DNA from: Rhodospirillaceae bacterium
GTDB lineage: Bacteria; Pseudomonadota; Alphaproteobacteria; Azospirillales; Azospirillaceae
Direction of reading: 5' to 3'
DNA: 36,008 bases
Assembly (NCBI GenBank): GCA_029267445.1
Contig: JAJUIU010000040.1
Span: 1 to 36,008 of the forward strand
The notes under the pieces are model-generated. The model did not search any database and was not told the origin of the DNA. It worked only from the letters and a program-made list of their open reading frames with translations. A program made the translations under genes and the position numbers. How positions within the stretch are numbered: position 1 is the stretch's first letter; every line of letters starts with the position of its first letter. This document shows, piece after piece, positions 6,049 to 10,500 of the stretch.

Positions 6049-6074
6049 GGAACGACTGCCACCTCCACCTGTTC
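6049..6074 (+). promoter_or_regulatory. Candidate EcfG-type stress promoter upstream of the zinc dehydrogenase
   Basis: GGAAC at 6049-6053 is followed after 17 bases by GTT at 6071-6073. The consensus of the alphaproteobacterial general stress sigma factor EcfG is GGAAC-N16/17-cGTT, so the fit is good except for the base before GTT. It lies 35 nt upstream of the ATG at 6109, and an almost identical arrangement precedes the SRPBCC gene. Confidence 0.5.
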
Positions 6075-6108: not shown

Positions 6109-7293
6109 ATGCGGGCGCTGGTCTGGCACGGCAAGGGGGACATCCGGTACGACACGGTCCCGGACCCCCGGATCGAGGAGCGGACCGACGCCATCGTGAA
6201 GGTGTCGAGCTGCGCCATCTGCGGCTCCGACCTGCACCTGATGGACGGCTACATCCCCTTCATGGAGTCCGGCGACGTGCTGGGCCATGAATGCATGGGG
6301 GAGGTGGTCGAGGTCGGGCCGGAGACGAAGGACCTGAAGGTCGGCGACCGGGTGGTCGTGCCCTTCACCATCACCTGCGGCAAGTGCGAGCAGTGCCGCA
6401 AGGGCAACTATTCCGTCTGCGAGAACAGCAACCGCAACGCGGCGCTCGCGTCCCGGATGTTCGGGCACACCACGGCCGGGCTGTTCGGCTATTCCCACAT
6501 CACCGGGGGCTACGCCGGCGGGCAGGCGGAGTATGTCCGCGTGCCGTTCGCCGACACCACCGTGATCAAGGCGCCGAAAAACGGCCTGTCGGACGAGCAG
6601 CTTCTGTTCCTGTCCGACATCTTCCCCACCGGCTGGCAGGCGGCCGTCCACTGCGACATCGAGGAGGGCGACGTGGTCGCCGTCTGGGGCTGCGGCCCCG
6701 TGGCGCAGTTCGCGATCAAGAGCTGCTTCATGCTGGGGGCCCACACGGTCATCGCCATCGACCGGGTGCCGGAGCGGCTGGAGATGGCGCGGCAGGCCGG
6801 CGCCATCACCATCGACTTCGAGAAGGAGTCGGTGCTGGAGCGGCTGAACGACCTCACCGGCGGGCGCGGCCCCGACAAGTGCATCGAGGCGGTGGGCATG
6901 GAGGCGCATGCCGGCCTCGGCTCCGCCCAGGGCCTCCAGGGCATGTACGATAAGGCGAAGGCGGCGCTCATGCTGGAGACGGAACGGCCGGCCGCGCTGC
7001 GCGAGGCGCTCTACGCCTGCCGTCCCGGTGGCATCGTGTCGGTGGCGGGCGTGTTCGGCGGCATGGCCGACAAGATCCCGCTGGGCGCCTTCATGAACAA
7101 GGGCCTGACCCTGCGCACAGGCCAGACGCATGTGAAGCGCTTCGCCGAGGACCTGCTGCGCCGGATCGAGGAGGGGGAGATCGACCCCACCTTCGTCATC
7201 ACCCACCGCCTGTCCCTCGCGGACGGGCCGGAGGCCTACCACACCTTCCGCGACAAGAAGGACGGCTGCATCAAGGTCGTCCTGACCCCCTGA
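6109..7293 (+). CDS. Zinc-dependent alcohol dehydrogenase, glutathione-independent formaldehyde dehydrogenase-like
   Basis: A 394-residue medium-chain dehydrogenase. Catalytic zinc ligands are Cys38 in CAICGSD and His60-Glu61 in LGHECMGE. The structural zinc lobe has Cys90, Cys93, Cys96 and Cys104. The Rossmann motif GCGPVAQFA lies near residues 194-202, and [10 protein letters not shown] supplies the acidic residue that favours NAD(H). The length and the insert around residues 270-310 match the subgroup often annotated as glutathione-independent formaldehyde dehydrogenase; the true substrate is uncertain. A GGAGGA ribosome binding site precedes the ATG. The small gene at 7304 follows after 10 nt and is probably co-transcribed. 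The EcfG-like box upstream suggests stress induction. Confidence 0.88.
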
Positions 7294-7303
7294 GGAGCGA
7301 AGC

Positions 7304-7528
7304 ATGACGACCGACAGCAAGCAGGGGCGGGGCGAACCGTCGCTCGAGGGCGCCCTTCATTCCGACCCCCACGCCAACGCCCGCGACGCCGAGCGTGACA
7401 TGGGCGACGAGGCCGCCAAGCGCCGTGAGACCGAGCAGGCGCAGGCTAACAAGCGCGCGGCGGAGAAGGATATCCGCAGCCCGGAACCCGGGGTCCGGCA
7501 GGGCACCACGCGCCAGCCGCCGGACTGA
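7304..7528 (+). CDS. Small highly charged hydrophilic protein, unknown function
   Basis: A 74-residue protein with no hydrophobic segment. It is rich in Asp, Glu, Arg, Lys, Ala and Gln, and residues about 20-60 would form an amphipathic or disordered helix. A GAGGAG ribosome binding site lies 5-6 nt upstream of the ATG, and the gene follows the dehydrogenase by 10 nt, so it looks genuine and operonic. The composition recalls small hydrophilic stress proteins, but I do not recognise a family. Confidence 0.65.
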   Translation: MTTDSKQGRGEPSLEGALHSDPHANARDAERDMGDEAAKRRETEQAQANKRAAEKDIRSPEPGVRQGTTRQPPD

Positions 7529-7559
7529 CGCGCCGCGCGTTCGCGCTATCCGAAAGACC

Positions 7560-7585
7560 GGAACGGTCGCGCGGCTCGCCTGTTG
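7560..7585 (+). promoter_or_regulatory. Candidate EcfG-type stress promoter upstream of the SRPBCC gene
   Basis: GGAAC at 7560-7564 is followed after 17 bases by GTT at 7582-7584, the same spacing and the same preceding T as the box at 6049. It sits 75 nt upstream of the ATG at 7660. The leader between them contains a 7-bp inverted repeat (CCGGCCC/GGGCCGG) and a GGGAGG ribosome binding site. Confidence 0.5.
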
Positions 7586-7659
7586 ACGGGCCTACGGTTT
7601 CCAACCTGACCCGGCCCGTTCCATCCAACCCAGGGCCGGTCTCCATCGGGAGGTCAGAC

Positions 7660-8637
7660 ATGACGGATTACGGCTCGTACGGACGCGGGGGCTCCAGCTA
7701 TGGCGCCGGCGGTTCCGCCCAGGGTGCCGGCGGCTATGGCGGCTACAGTGACGACGACGAGATGGGCTATGGCCGCGAAAGCTACGGCGGCGGCTATGGC
7801 GGCTACGGCAGCTTCGGCGGCCAGGGGTACGGCCAGTCCCAGGGTCAACGGGCCCAGGGCCAGCGTGGCGGCCAGGGCACGGGCAACGCCTACCAGATGG
7901 CGCCGCTCGTGGTTGGCGGCCTGATGGCGGCCCTTGGCCTGCGCCGGGGCGGCTGGCTCGGCTATGGCATCGCGCTGGCGGGCCTCGGCGTCATGCAGCA
8001 GAGCTTCAGCGGCAAGCCGGCCATCCAGGAATGGCTGGGCTATGGCGATGACGGCGATCATGAGGGCCGGGCGGTTACCGCTTCGCATTCGGTGACCATC
8101 AACCGGTCGGCCGAGGATCTCTACAAGTTCTGGCGCGACTTCTCCAACCTGTCGCAGGTGCTCTCCAATATCGAGCGCATCGACGTGATCGACGACCGCC
8201 ACTCGCATTGGGTCGCCAAGGCGCCAGGCGGCATGCACGTGTCCTGGGACGCCGAGGTCACCGACGACCAGGAGAACCGCCGGATCGCGTGGCGCTCGCA
8301 GCAGGGTGCGGACGTGCCGAACTGGGGCCATGTCGAGTTCCGCCCGGCCCCGGGCGGGCGTGGCACCGAGCTGCACGCCGTGATCCGTTACGAGCCGCCG
8401 GCCGGCGCCCTTGGCCGCATGGTCGCGAAGATGTTCATGCGCGAACCGCAGGAGCAGATGCGGATGGACCTGCAGAAGTTCAAACGCGAGATGGAGACGG
8501 GCGGGATGGGGACCTCCTCCAGCTCCATGGCGTCCAGCTCCACGGGCTCGACCGGCACCGGCACGGCGGCGACCGGCAGCACCGCCACCAAGGGTGCCAG
8601 CTCCACCAGCGGCCAGACTGTCACCGGCGACATCTGA
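7660..8637 (+). CDS. SRPBCC (polyketide cyclase/START-like) protein with Tyr/Gly-rich N-terminal tail
   Basis: A 325-residue protein in four parts. Residues 1-75 are low-complexity, dominated by Gly, Tyr, Ser and Gln with many YGG, SYG and GYG units. Residues about 80-125 hold one or two short hydrophobic segments (APLVVGGLMAALGL and GIALAGLGVM), possibly membrane-associated. Residues about 145-285 form an SRPBCC/cyclase-dehydrase domain beginning SVTINRSAEDLYKFWRDFSN, with VSWDAEV and IAWRSQQGADVPNWGHVEF. The last 40 residues are a Ser/Thr/Gly tail. Related proteins, often paired with dehydrogenases and small hydrophilic proteins, occur in stress-inducible clusters, but their ligand is unknown. 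The Tyr/Gly tail resembles prion-like regions of eukaryotic RNA-binding proteins in composition only. Confidence 0.82.
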   Translation: MTDYGSYGRGGSSYGAGGSAQGAGGYGGYSDDDEMGYGRESYGGGYGGYGSFGGQGYGQSQGQRAQGQRGGQGTGNAYQMAPLVVGGLMAALGLRRGGWLGYGIALAGLGVMQQSFSGKPAIQEWLGYGDDGDHEGRAVTASHSVTINRSAEDLYKFWRDFSNLSQVLSNIERIDVIDDRHSHWVAKAPGGMHVSWDAEVTDDQENRRIAWRSQQGADVPNWGHVEFRPAPGGRGTELHAVIRYEPPAGALGRMVAKMFMREPQEQMRMDLQKFKREMETGGMGTSSSSMASSSTGSTGTGTAATGSTATKGASSTSGQTVTGDI

Positions 8638-8660
8638 TCGTCGTCGCGTCCTGACGCTTC

Positions 8661-8710
8661 GGACCCGCGCCGCCGTACTGTCGGGGACGGGGGCGCGGGT
8701 CCGCCTGTTT
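8661..8710 (+). terminator. Probable Rho-independent terminator after the SRPBCC gene
   Basis: GGACCCGCGCC at 8661-8671 pairs perfectly with GGCGCGGGTCC at 8692-8702, giving an 11-bp GC stem followed by GCCTGTTT. The T tract is short, so termination may be partial. Confidence 0.6.
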
Positions 8711-8742
8711 CAGGGGTGACGCAACCCATGAAGGGGGTTCCC

Positions 8743-9372
8743 ATGCGCATCCGAACCGGCATCCTGGCGGTCGCCCTGGCCCTGTCCCCGGTCGTGGCGG
8801 CCCAGGCCCAGACCGGCGGCCAGGACACGTCGCGCGGCGCCGGCCAGCCCACCACGCCCAGCCCGCCCGGCATGGGTCTGCCCTCCCCGGAACGGCCGGA
8901 GGCGACATCCCTTCCGAAGGATGACGCGGCGTTCCTCGATCAGGCGCTGCGCATCGTCACCTTCGGGCTGGAGAGCAGCCGCATGGCGATCGCCCGCACC
9001 GACGACGAGGAGGCGCGGCTGCTGGCCGAGGGGCTGATCACCGACTTCACCGCCATGGGCGACGCCATCACCTCCGTCGCTTCCCTGGAGGAGTCGGCTC
9101 CCCCCGCCGAGCTGGACGCCGGCCGCGCGGCGGCCCTGGCGGAACTGCGGCTGGCCTCACCGGCGGAGTTCACCGACGTCTGGCTGTCGCAGCAGATCGC
9201 CGCGCACGAGGACGCCGTGAACCTGTTCCAGCAAGCGTCCAAGCCGACCCCGTCCGGCGACCAGAGCGTGGCGGACCTCGCCCGCTCCAGCCTGCCCAAG
9301 CTGCGGGAGAATCTGGCCGCGCTGAAGGCGGCGGGAACGGGGGTGGAGCAGGCGCAGGGCGCCCAGCGGTGA
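8743..9372 (+). CDS. DUF4142-like exported protein
   Basis: A 209-residue protein with a signal peptide (MRIRTGILAVALALSPVVA, cleavage likely near AAQAQ). The mature part has the layout of DUF4142 proteins, which are ferritin-like helical bundles: DDAAFLDQALRIVTFGLESSRMA, then a helix with LITDFTAMGDAI, then FTDVWLSQQIAAHEDAVNLFQQA, then SLPKLRENLAALKA. The usual conserved His residues are only partly present, so metal binding is uncertain. I chose ATG 8743 because AAGGGGG lies 5-6 nt upstream; GTG 8716 and ATG 8728 would lengthen the protein ahead of a clear signal peptide. The stop overlaps the next start as GTGA. A role in envelope stress is suggested only by neighbours. Confidence 0.72.
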   Translation: MRIRTGILAVALALSPVVAAQAQTGGQDTSRGAGQPTTPSPPGMGLPSPERPEATSLPKDDAAFLDQALRIVTFGLESSRMAIARTDDEEARLLAEGLITDFTAMGDAITSVASLEESAPPAELDAGRAAALAELRLASPAEFTDVWLSQQIAAHEDAVNLFQQASKPTPSGDQSVADLARSSLPKLRENLAALKAAGTGVEQAQGAQR

Positions 9373-9608
9373 GCGGCCGCCACCAGCTCGTCTACTCCTA
9401 TGCCGGCGAGGCGGACGCCGGCCTGGAGGAGAATGTGGCGCGCCTGTTCCCCGGCGCCCGCCGCACGGCCCGGCAGTCGGGCATGCAGGGGCTGACCGAG
9501 GTGACGCTCGAGCTGACGGAGGACCCGCCGGCCGACCAGTTGGACCGCCTGCGGGGCCTGCCTCGCATCGTGGACGCGGCCGTGGGATCGCTGGGCGAAG
9601 GGGTGTGA
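9369..9608 (+). CDS. Small conserved-looking protein, unknown function
   Basis: A 79-residue protein starting at a GTG that overlaps the TGA of the DUF4142-like gene, implying translational coupling. Predicted elements alternate strand and helix (HQLVYSY, LEENVARLF, GLTEVTLEL, ADQLDRLRGLPRIVDA), which could form a small ferredoxin-like fold. There is no signal peptide or membrane segment. I do not recognise the family. Confidence 0.6.
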   Translation: MSGRHQLVYSYAGEADAGLEENVARLFPGARRTARQSGMQGLTEVTLELTEDPPADQLDRLRGLPRIVDAAVGSLGEGV

Positions 9609-9777
9609 ACCGGGGCGCCGATCGCCCCGCGCCGAACATTCCATTACGAATAATGTGGTTTTTCAAGGTGTTCGGCGGTGCGCGGCGGGATGGCCCCTTG
9701 CCGATTTCCATTGAAACGCGGCGGCGGCCTCCCAATATGGAAGCCGTCATTCACAGACATCCGTGTCGAGGGACCCC

Positions 9778-10500
9778 ATGGCTTTCGGACAATACAATCG
9801 GTACGCGACCCAGGGCCGCGCCATCGATCAGGCCCAGTTCGACGAAGGCCTGCGGCAGCACATGCTGCGGGTCTACAACTACATGACCGTCGGCCTGGTG
9901 ATCACCGGGCTCATCGCCTTCTTCGGCTCCAGCTCGCAGGCGCTCGTCGCCGCGGTGTTCGGCACGCCGCTGAAGTGGGTGGTGATGCTGGCGCCGCTGG
10001 CCTTCATCATGGTCATCAGCTTCAACTTCCACAAGATGGCGTCCGGCACGCTGCAGATGCTCTTCTGGGCCTTCTGCGCGCTGATGGGCCTGTCGATGAT
10101 GAGCGTCTTCCTGGTCTTCACCGGGGAGAGCATCGCGCGGGTGTTCTTCATCACCGCCGCCACCTTCGCCGCCGCCAGCCTGTACGGCTACACGACGAAG
10201 GCCGACCTGACGAAGTTCGGCGCCTTCATGTTCATGGGGCTGATCGGCATCGTCATCGCCAGCATCGTGAACATCTTCCTGGGCTCCAGCGCGCTGCAGT
10301 TCGCGGTGTCCGTCATTGGCGTCATCGTCTTCACCGGCCTGACCGCCTGGGACACCCAGAACATCAAGGAGCAGTATGCCGAGGGCTGGGGTGAGGAGAG
10401 CAACAACAAGCTCGCCGTGATGGGTGCCTTGTCGCTCTACCTGAACTTCATCAACCTGTTCCAGATGCTGCTCCAGCTTCTGGGCCAGCGCGAGGAGTAG
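9778..10500 (+). CDS. Bax inhibitor-1/YccA family membrane protein
   Basis: A 240-residue inner membrane protein with seven predicted transmembrane segments. The sequence matches bacterial Bax inhibitor-1 proteins: an N-terminal FDEGLRQHMLRVYNYMTVGL segment, the LTAWDTQNIKEQY motif near the C-terminus, and the final helix LSLYLNFINLFQMLLQLLG. The family includes pH-dependent calcium leak channels and YbhL/YccA, which modulate FtsH proteolysis in Escherichia coli. ATG 9778 is preceded by GAGGGA at good spacing; an in-frame GTG at 9763 is less likely. The 169 bases upstream contain only a weak inverted repeat near 9640. Confidence 0.92.
   Translation: MAFGQYNRYATQGRAIDQAQFDEGLRQHMLRVYNYMTVGLVITGLIAFFGSSSQALVAAVFGTPLKWVVMLAPLAFIMVISFNFHKMASGTLQMLFWAFCALMGLSMMSVFLVFTGESIARVFFITAATFAAASLYGYTTKADLTKFGAFMFMGLIGIVIASIVNIFLGSSALQFAVSVIGVIVFTGLTAWDTQNIKEQYAEGWGEESNNKLAVMGALSLYLNFINLFQMLLQLLGQREE

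Follow-up and report, generated by a model that had tools for sequence, protein, structure and literature searches.

The closest known protein with the domain considered here is DR_A0006 of Deinococcus radiodurans, an SRPBCC/cyclase-dehydrase-like protein. In excerpts from the relevant reports, DRA0006 is directly bound by CRP, lowered in a CRP mutant and called adenylate-cyclase-like (PMC4868304), and a Deinococcus homologue is upregulated 7.2-fold after gamma irradiation (PMC7314050). Because the domain is SRPBCC, the 'cyclase' in that name is better taken as polyketide-cyclase-like, and the cAMP link drawn for DRA0006 in the excerpted paper looks doubtful. The SWFGD/BON proteins (NF033157) provide a second point of comparison, combining a Tyr/Gly-rich N-terminal region and a Gly/Ser/Thr-rich C-terminus with a different folded domain. 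In the low-complexity domains of the FET type (FUS, TAF15), Tyr residues are spaced in Gly/Ser/Gln-rich sequence. Finally, promoters of the EcfG (sigma-T) regulon have the consensus GGAAC-N16-18-CGTT. Two reports name EcfG as the factor in charge of the general stress response in Alphaproteobacteria (PMC5898713, PMC5964349).

Here, we analyze a gene of a Rhodospirillaceae bacterium (assembly GCA_029267445.1, contig JAJUIU010000040.1, positions 1 to 36,008; this stretch of 36,008 nucleotides is referred to as the window) that encodes an SRPBCC protein with a Tyr/Gly-rich N-terminal tail. The gene, the parts of its product and its neighborhood are as follows.

6049..6073, + strand: second EcfG-like site, GGAAC-N15-CTGTT, 60 bp before the dehydrogenase gene
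6109..7293, + strand: zinc-dependent alcohol dehydrogenase, of the kind paired with SRPBCC genes elsewhere
7304..7528, + strand: 74-aa hydrophilic ORF between the dehydrogenase and SRPBCC genes (from the ORF list)
7560..7584, + strand: EcfG-like (general stress response) promoter site, GGAAC-N15-CTGTT, 100 bp before the start codon
7648..7653, + strand: likely ribosome-binding site GGGAGG, just 5' of the ATG (from sequence)
7660-8637, + strand: gene for the SRPBCC protein with N-terminal tail (ORF, ATG start, 325 aa)
7660..7887, + strand: Tyr/Gly-rich N-terminal tail, residues 1-76, with a DDDE cluster at 31-34 (composition counts)
7888..8013, + strand: hydrophobic hairpin-like segment, residues 77-118 (conservation, hydropathy)
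8071..8499, + strand: SRPBCC domain (Polyketide_cyc/Polyketide_cyc2) of the DR_A0006 type, residues 138-280 (Pfam, PDB matches)
8500..8634, + strand: Ser/Thr/Gly-rich C-terminal tail, residues 281-325 (composition count)
8743..9372, + strand: DUF4142 protein (Pfam, E=2.1e-20), found at 2 of 4 other tailed loci
9369..9608, + strand: 79-aa protein, 49-61% identity at 3 of 4 other tailed loci
9778..10500, + strand: Bax-inhibitor-1 family membrane protein (Pfam, E=1.8e-62)

The window protein belongs to the SRPBCC / Polyketide_cyc family, with profile scores above the curated cut-offs: over residues 139-279, it matched Polyketide_cyc (PF03364; E=2.5e-15, 57.3 bits vs cut-off 23.4) and Polyketide_cyc2 (PF10604; E=2.9e-12, 47.5 bits vs cut-off 27.4). 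The nearest solved structures are those of DR_A0006 (PDB 3ggn and 2kcz; E about 7e-40 over 136 residues), followed by TTHA0849 (PDB 2d4r; E 3.9e-5). The match to DR_A0006 is limited, however, to the domain, and the three plasmid relatives read for tails show no Tyr/Gly tail. An NCBIfam scan of the protein returned LIC10604_fam alone, far below its cut-off, and did not place the protein in the SWFGD family NF033157. A role as a defence gene was ruled out by the lack of a PADLOC match, and no paper naming this protein was found in the open-licence literature searched.

The hydrophobic segment that the earlier note had recognized was confirmed at residues 77-118: two short hydrophobic stretches, with 15-residue hydropathy maxima of 2.0 and 1.43, flank the sequence RRGGW. 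This segment has no Pfam match; in particular, DUF2892, a YgaP-like transmembrane hairpin, was unmatched in the window protein and in any of 7 members (Pfam, E up to 1). The Ser/Thr-rich opposite end was likewise borne out, with 12 S, 11 T and 10 G (33 of 45 residues S/T/G). An AlphaFold model built on three sequences was poor (mean pLDDT 45.3, pTM 0.39); it places helices at 83-90 and 101-109 and shows an SRPBCC-like order of elements, with one helix, strands and a long C-terminal helix. The N-terminal tail has pLDDT 26-35, which says little about disorder because the whole model is poor.

The composition of the tail is distinctive. Residues 1-76 include 30 Gly, 10 Tyr, 8 Ser and 8 Gln, with 9 YG and 6 GY dipeptides. 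Against a background of seven gene stretches from the window (1,898 residues in all), the excess is strong for Gly (P=4e-11) and Tyr (P=5.7e-6) and weak for Gln (P=0.0064) and Ser (P=0.047). Its densest 60 residues contain 48 G/Y/S/Q and 10 Tyr, where the background never exceeds 26 and 5. The 60 residues richest in YG/GY dipeptides contain 10 of them; the runner-up among stop-free stretches in all six frames of the window contains 3. These comparisons rule out chance or a wrong frame as the source of the tail and confirm the description of the first ~75 residues as rich in Tyr, Gly, Ser and Gln. Two other parts of that description, given in the earlier note, hold in part. The tail has few charges overall (13%, net -2), the exception being the DDDE cluster, and the label 'FUS-like' fits the high Tyr and Gly contents and the spacing of Tyr in Gly/Ser/Gln-rich sequence but is loose otherwise, the tail being Gly-dominated (39%, with Ser and Gln at 11% each), only 76 residues long and without an RNA-binding partner domain. 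When the tail alone was searched against the PDB, two weak antibody matches were obtained (best E 0.17). Its Tyr codons are TAC and TAT in the ratio 6/4, and 24 of the 30 Gly codons are GGC. Repeats found with TRF are short, 9 bp in 3.8 copies at 7788-7821 and 12 bp in 1.9 copies, which rules out mass repeat expansion as the origin of the tail.

The phyletic distribution of the tail was followed by several searches. A family search of 82 genomes yielded 57 SRPBCC places in 52 genomes; an order-labelled search covered the same 82 genomes and added no places; a class search of 385 genomes gave 11 matching at 1e-20, nine of them new; and a scan of 84,980 species returned two loci, in Aerophototrophica crusticola and Oleisolibacter albus. 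Upstream regions were read at 69 places, namely all 57 from the family, the 9 new ones from the class and 3 on plasmids (from 97 matching plasmid records). The tail is present in 5 of these 69, the window included (the others are designated G066, G065, G076 and G054), and these five genomes span four GTDB genera. The distribution tracks body identity exactly: the tailed relatives are 73-78% identical to the window protein in the body, with every tailed protein at or above 73% (the window itself being 100%), and in the remaining 64 the region upstream of the match has 0-1 YG/GY per 60 residues. Genus g13 comes next (48-51% body identity), and its protein begins just before the hairpin; in genus g3, a tail of this kind is found on BON but not on SRPBCC. 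The earlier note had regarded orthologues lacking the tail as evidence against its proposal; the four nearest relatives carry the tail, and the 64 more distant ones that were read do not. A search of the window's own genome with the tail sequence recovered only the tail itself.

We consider the tail to be a clade-specific, probably disordered extension found in one small group of Azospirillaceae-type genomes. So narrow a range, five genomes alone with low tail identity, might be expected if the tail were functionless and kept by drift among related genomes. We consider such persistence highly unlikely, given that the tail is kept across four GTDB genera with its Tyr content maintained, in proteins whose bodies are 73-78% identical.

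The five tailed proteins evolve very unevenly along their length. Mean pairwise identity is 91% in the hairpin, 74% in the SRPBCC domain, 46% in the linker and 23% in the C-terminus, where both length and sequence vary; in the N-terminal tail, it is 42% over aligned positions and 31% when gaps are counted. The tails are 49-78 residues long and contain 20-39% Gly, 8-13% Tyr and 13-27% charged residues, with no Lys. For comparison, Tyr accounts for 2.2% of the window background, and 1.1% is expected from base composition at 70.5% GC. When whole tails were aligned, the score was reached by 0-5 of 300 shuffles in all 10 pairs; after removal of both ends, only 2 of the 10 pairs still outscored all 300. 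At its first and last residues, the tail is conserved among the five. Therefore, what is kept is the composition and both ends, not the inner positions or the spacing. The evenness of aromatic spacing is not clearly beyond that of shuffles (5-69% of 2,000 shuffles were equally or more even), and [GS]Y[GS] counts run from 9 in the window tail to 4, 2, 2 and 0 in the other four. Thus, conservation of Tyr spacing among orthologues, which had been suggested as a check, was not found in the five tails; free variation of composition, named as grounds for rejecting the idea, was not found either, with Tyr and Gly confined to the above ranges in all five and charge more variable.

These observations bear on the possibility that the tail is an entropic spacer, a Gly-rich tether that distances partners or the membrane, partly grown by slippage and devoid of self-association. 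Gly at 38-39% in four of the five tails, mostly encoded by GGC, the short 9-bp repeat, the variable length and the drift of positions would all fit such a spacer. A plain spacer, however, has no need of Tyr, which is kept at its observed level despite GC pressure against TAY codons, nor would it account for the conserved first and last residues. We rank this explanation second and regard it as somewhat unlikely. Ranked first, and preferred tentatively, is the view that the tail, borne by an SRPBCC protein that is probably under stress regulation and attached to the membrane, works by weak multivalent contacts.

The genomic neighborhood offers a partial parallel to that of the DR_A0006-type genes. 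The SRPBCC gene and a dehydrogenase gene form a pair in 5 of 5 annotated plasmid records, from Sphingobium, Sphingomonas, Roseomonas and two Deinococcus, that were hand-picked for opening among the 97 matching. In the window, too, the SRPBCC gene has a neighboring dehydrogenase, 60% identical to the partner gene of D. gobiensis. It lies two genes upstream; in the two Deinococcus plasmids, the dehydrogenase follows the SRPBCC gene. No tblastn match to the dehydrogenase was obtained at the other four tailed genes, in 15-17 kb cut around each. The intervening 74-aa ORF has no Pfam or NCBIfam match and no tblastn match in the same four loci. The dehydrogenase might belong to the same stress regulon, because it has an EcfG-like site of its own at 6049-6073. 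Downstream, a Bax-inhibitor-1 gene lies near the SRPBCC gene at all four other tailed loci (72-79% identity). The 79-aa protein, which has no Pfam match, is conserved as well, accompanying the Bax-inhibitor-1 gene in 3 of these 4 genomes.

The succession of DUF4142 and Bax-inhibitor-1 genes after the SRPBCC gene would be compatible with a role of the tail in the envelope, for example in Tyr crosslinking or wall contact, if the hairpin were reversed so that the tail faces the periplasm or the surface. By the positive-inside rule, the hairpin loop, which carries RR, is placed inside, and this would put the tail and the domain outside. On the other side, no signal peptide was noticed when the window protein sequence was read by eye, and the homologue DR_A0006 lacks such a context. 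An outward-facing tail therefore seems quite improbable.

The canonical form of the EcfG promoter, which was sought first, is absent from the window. The likeness consists in the GGAAC half-site and the spacing; the difference is in the second half, where the sites carry CTGTT, that is, TGTT in place of CGTT. The GGAAC-N15-CTGTT site is found upstream of the gene in all five tailed genomes, 65-100 bp before the start (82, 77, 91 and 65 bp in the other four). A looser form (N15-18, [CT]GTT), sought within 700 bp of the match, is present in 1 of 51 untailed family relatives (L018, twice), and a reversed control pattern in 0 of 51; the difference between 5 of 5 and 1 of 51 gives a Fisher P=1.6e-6, computed ignoring descent. 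The untailed sample comprises 25 + 26 family places, leaving out a second copy in G066 (L060) and the class and plasmid loci. The loose pattern matches 14 times across 100,012 bases (the window and the four other loci), as against twice for the reversed control. Of 100 dinucleotide shuffles of the window, 23 contained two or more loose sites and 0 contained as many strict ones, the strict form having been chosen after the sites were seen. The missing near site in genus g3 is weak evidence because the g3 SRPBCC gene may sit downstream in an operon. No sigma-70 promoter was found upstream within 7200-9800. The suggestion that the protein is stress-induced gains indirect support from the presence of the EcfG-like site in all five tailed genomes together with the excerpted reports on the Deinococcus homologues. 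Most likely, the tailed SRPBCC gene is switched on by the general stress sigma factor EcfG. The promoter-like GGAAC-N15-CTGTT site upstream of the tailed genes is new here.

Regions of similar composition are also found on unrelated proteins. Two are encoded in the window's own genome: an SWFGD/BON protein (L119; NF033157 E=5.6e-12, 45.2 bits vs cut-off 35; BON E=9e-22) and a protein with a hydrophobic segment and no Pfam or significant NCBIfam match (L126; G000:C160:54394-54687). Both have Tyr/Gly-rich regions, Gly/Ser/Thr-rich C-termini and EcfG-like sites upstream. Among 31 BON loci that were read, part of a longer list of places, 30 show 4 or more YG/GY per 60 residues ahead of the domain, G/S/T make up 45-81% of the C-termini, and 10 have the loose site upstream (reversed control, 0). 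Within the five tailed genomes, the site precedes the BON gene in 2 of 5 and is absent within the 1,500 bp searched in the other 3. The BON tail differs from that of the SRPBCC protein in being longer and richer in Arg and Asp (RDYG units); the proteins at L117-L121 and L129-L153 have long N-terminal regions of this RDYG type and Gly/Ser/Thr-rich C-termini. Copying of the tail from the BON gene was ruled out: alignment z scores within the same genome are 0.1-2.4, with one cross-genome pair at 5.7, and because of the low same-genome scores the two kinds of tail are considered alike in composition alone.

For the hydrophobic-segment protein, 30 of 57 places were read, all 30 with a loose EcfG-like site upstream (reversed control, 1). 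YG/GY per 60 residues amounts to 2-6 in the tailed genomes, 3-5 in five g13 genomes, 0 in three g11 genomes that have neither SRPBCC nor BON matches and, at 17 g3 loci, 0-1 in sixteen and 3 in one. Across L126 and its 29 relatives, a helix and the hydrophobic segment are conserved, and the Tyr/Gly region comes and goes by lineage.

The SRPBCC and SWFGD/BON genes tend to occur together: with cut-offs of E at most 1e-10 and at most 1e-15, respectively, 44 of the 82 genomes have both, 8 SRPBCC alone, 1 BON alone and 29 neither, counts that relatedness inflates. The same caveat of relatedness applies to the figures inside g3 (37/3/1/4, P=0.001) and outside it (7/5/0/25, P=8e-5).

A YG-triplet pattern search in six relatives recovered the BON protein (G066), a protein with one hydrophobic segment (G054) and a double cold-shock-domain protein (G079:C1, around 679882; L098) whose linker is YGG/DRG-rich; in further matches, such as peptidase-like and Wzc-like proteins, the triplets look incidental. 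In Oleisolibacter (L100; G065:C1:586508-586572), a perfect 15-bp tandem repeat reads YGSGQ in one frame and looks like a slippage array. The own genome has 6 matches to the YG-triplet DNA pattern vs 26 for the reversed control, that is, no enrichment: two in the tail, two overlapping in a Wzc-like Tyr-rich end, one in a peptidase-like protein (both names given by reading the sequence) and one without an in-frame YG cluster. This result, together with the tail search that found only itself, rules out a tail module spread through the genome.

The cold-shock-domain protein invites the idea that the tail binds RNA or another polyanion in the manner of YGG/RGG-like regions, so that the protein would hold nucleic acid at the membrane under stress. 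The other tails of the group have 8-12% Arg, with RGG/RG pieces, and an excerpt from the literature ties Arg/Gly-rich low-complexity regions and YGG motifs to RNA binding (PMC6821194). The window tail, in contrast, has 4 Arg against 6 Asp/Glu, and Pfam and NCBIfam scans of the window protein found no RNA-binding domain. A nucleic acid-binding role thus appears improbable.

Returning to weak multivalent contacts, several features are seen in the sequences themselves: the tail, its distribution, its kept composition, the conservation of the hairpin, the promoter-like site and the similar regions on two proteins. The mechanism we envisage is the following. Under stress, EcfG would turn on the tailed SRPBCC gene; the hydrophobic hairpin would probably attach the product to the membrane, and the SRPBCC domain would probably hold a lipid-like or hydrophobic ligand. 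The tail would make Tyr-Tyr, Tyr-Arg and Gly-rich backbone contacts, which need composition rather than exact sequence, and would thereby raise local clustering of the SRPBCC protein. Perhaps it also promotes encounters with further stress proteins in that cell that carry tails, the SWFGD/BON protein among them. A bolder version, which we regard as unlikely, holds that structurally unrelated proteins (SRPBCC, SWFGD/BON and the hydrophobic-segment protein), alike in having a Tyr/Gly-rich region and a Gly/Ser/Thr-rich end, are induced together in the general stress response of this group of Alphaproteobacteria and co-assemble as a membrane stress body, a condensate that would be built by convergent tails, not by shared domains.

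If the tails act together, this would be a bacterial stress regulon that organizes its proteins by means of shared low-complexity tails. Near relatives in which this SRPBCC protein either has or lacks the tail offer a clean natural comparison, and the long-discussed question of whether bacterial Tyr/Gly-rich tails act as they do in eukaryotes becomes directly testable in bacteria of soil and water that are not pathogens.
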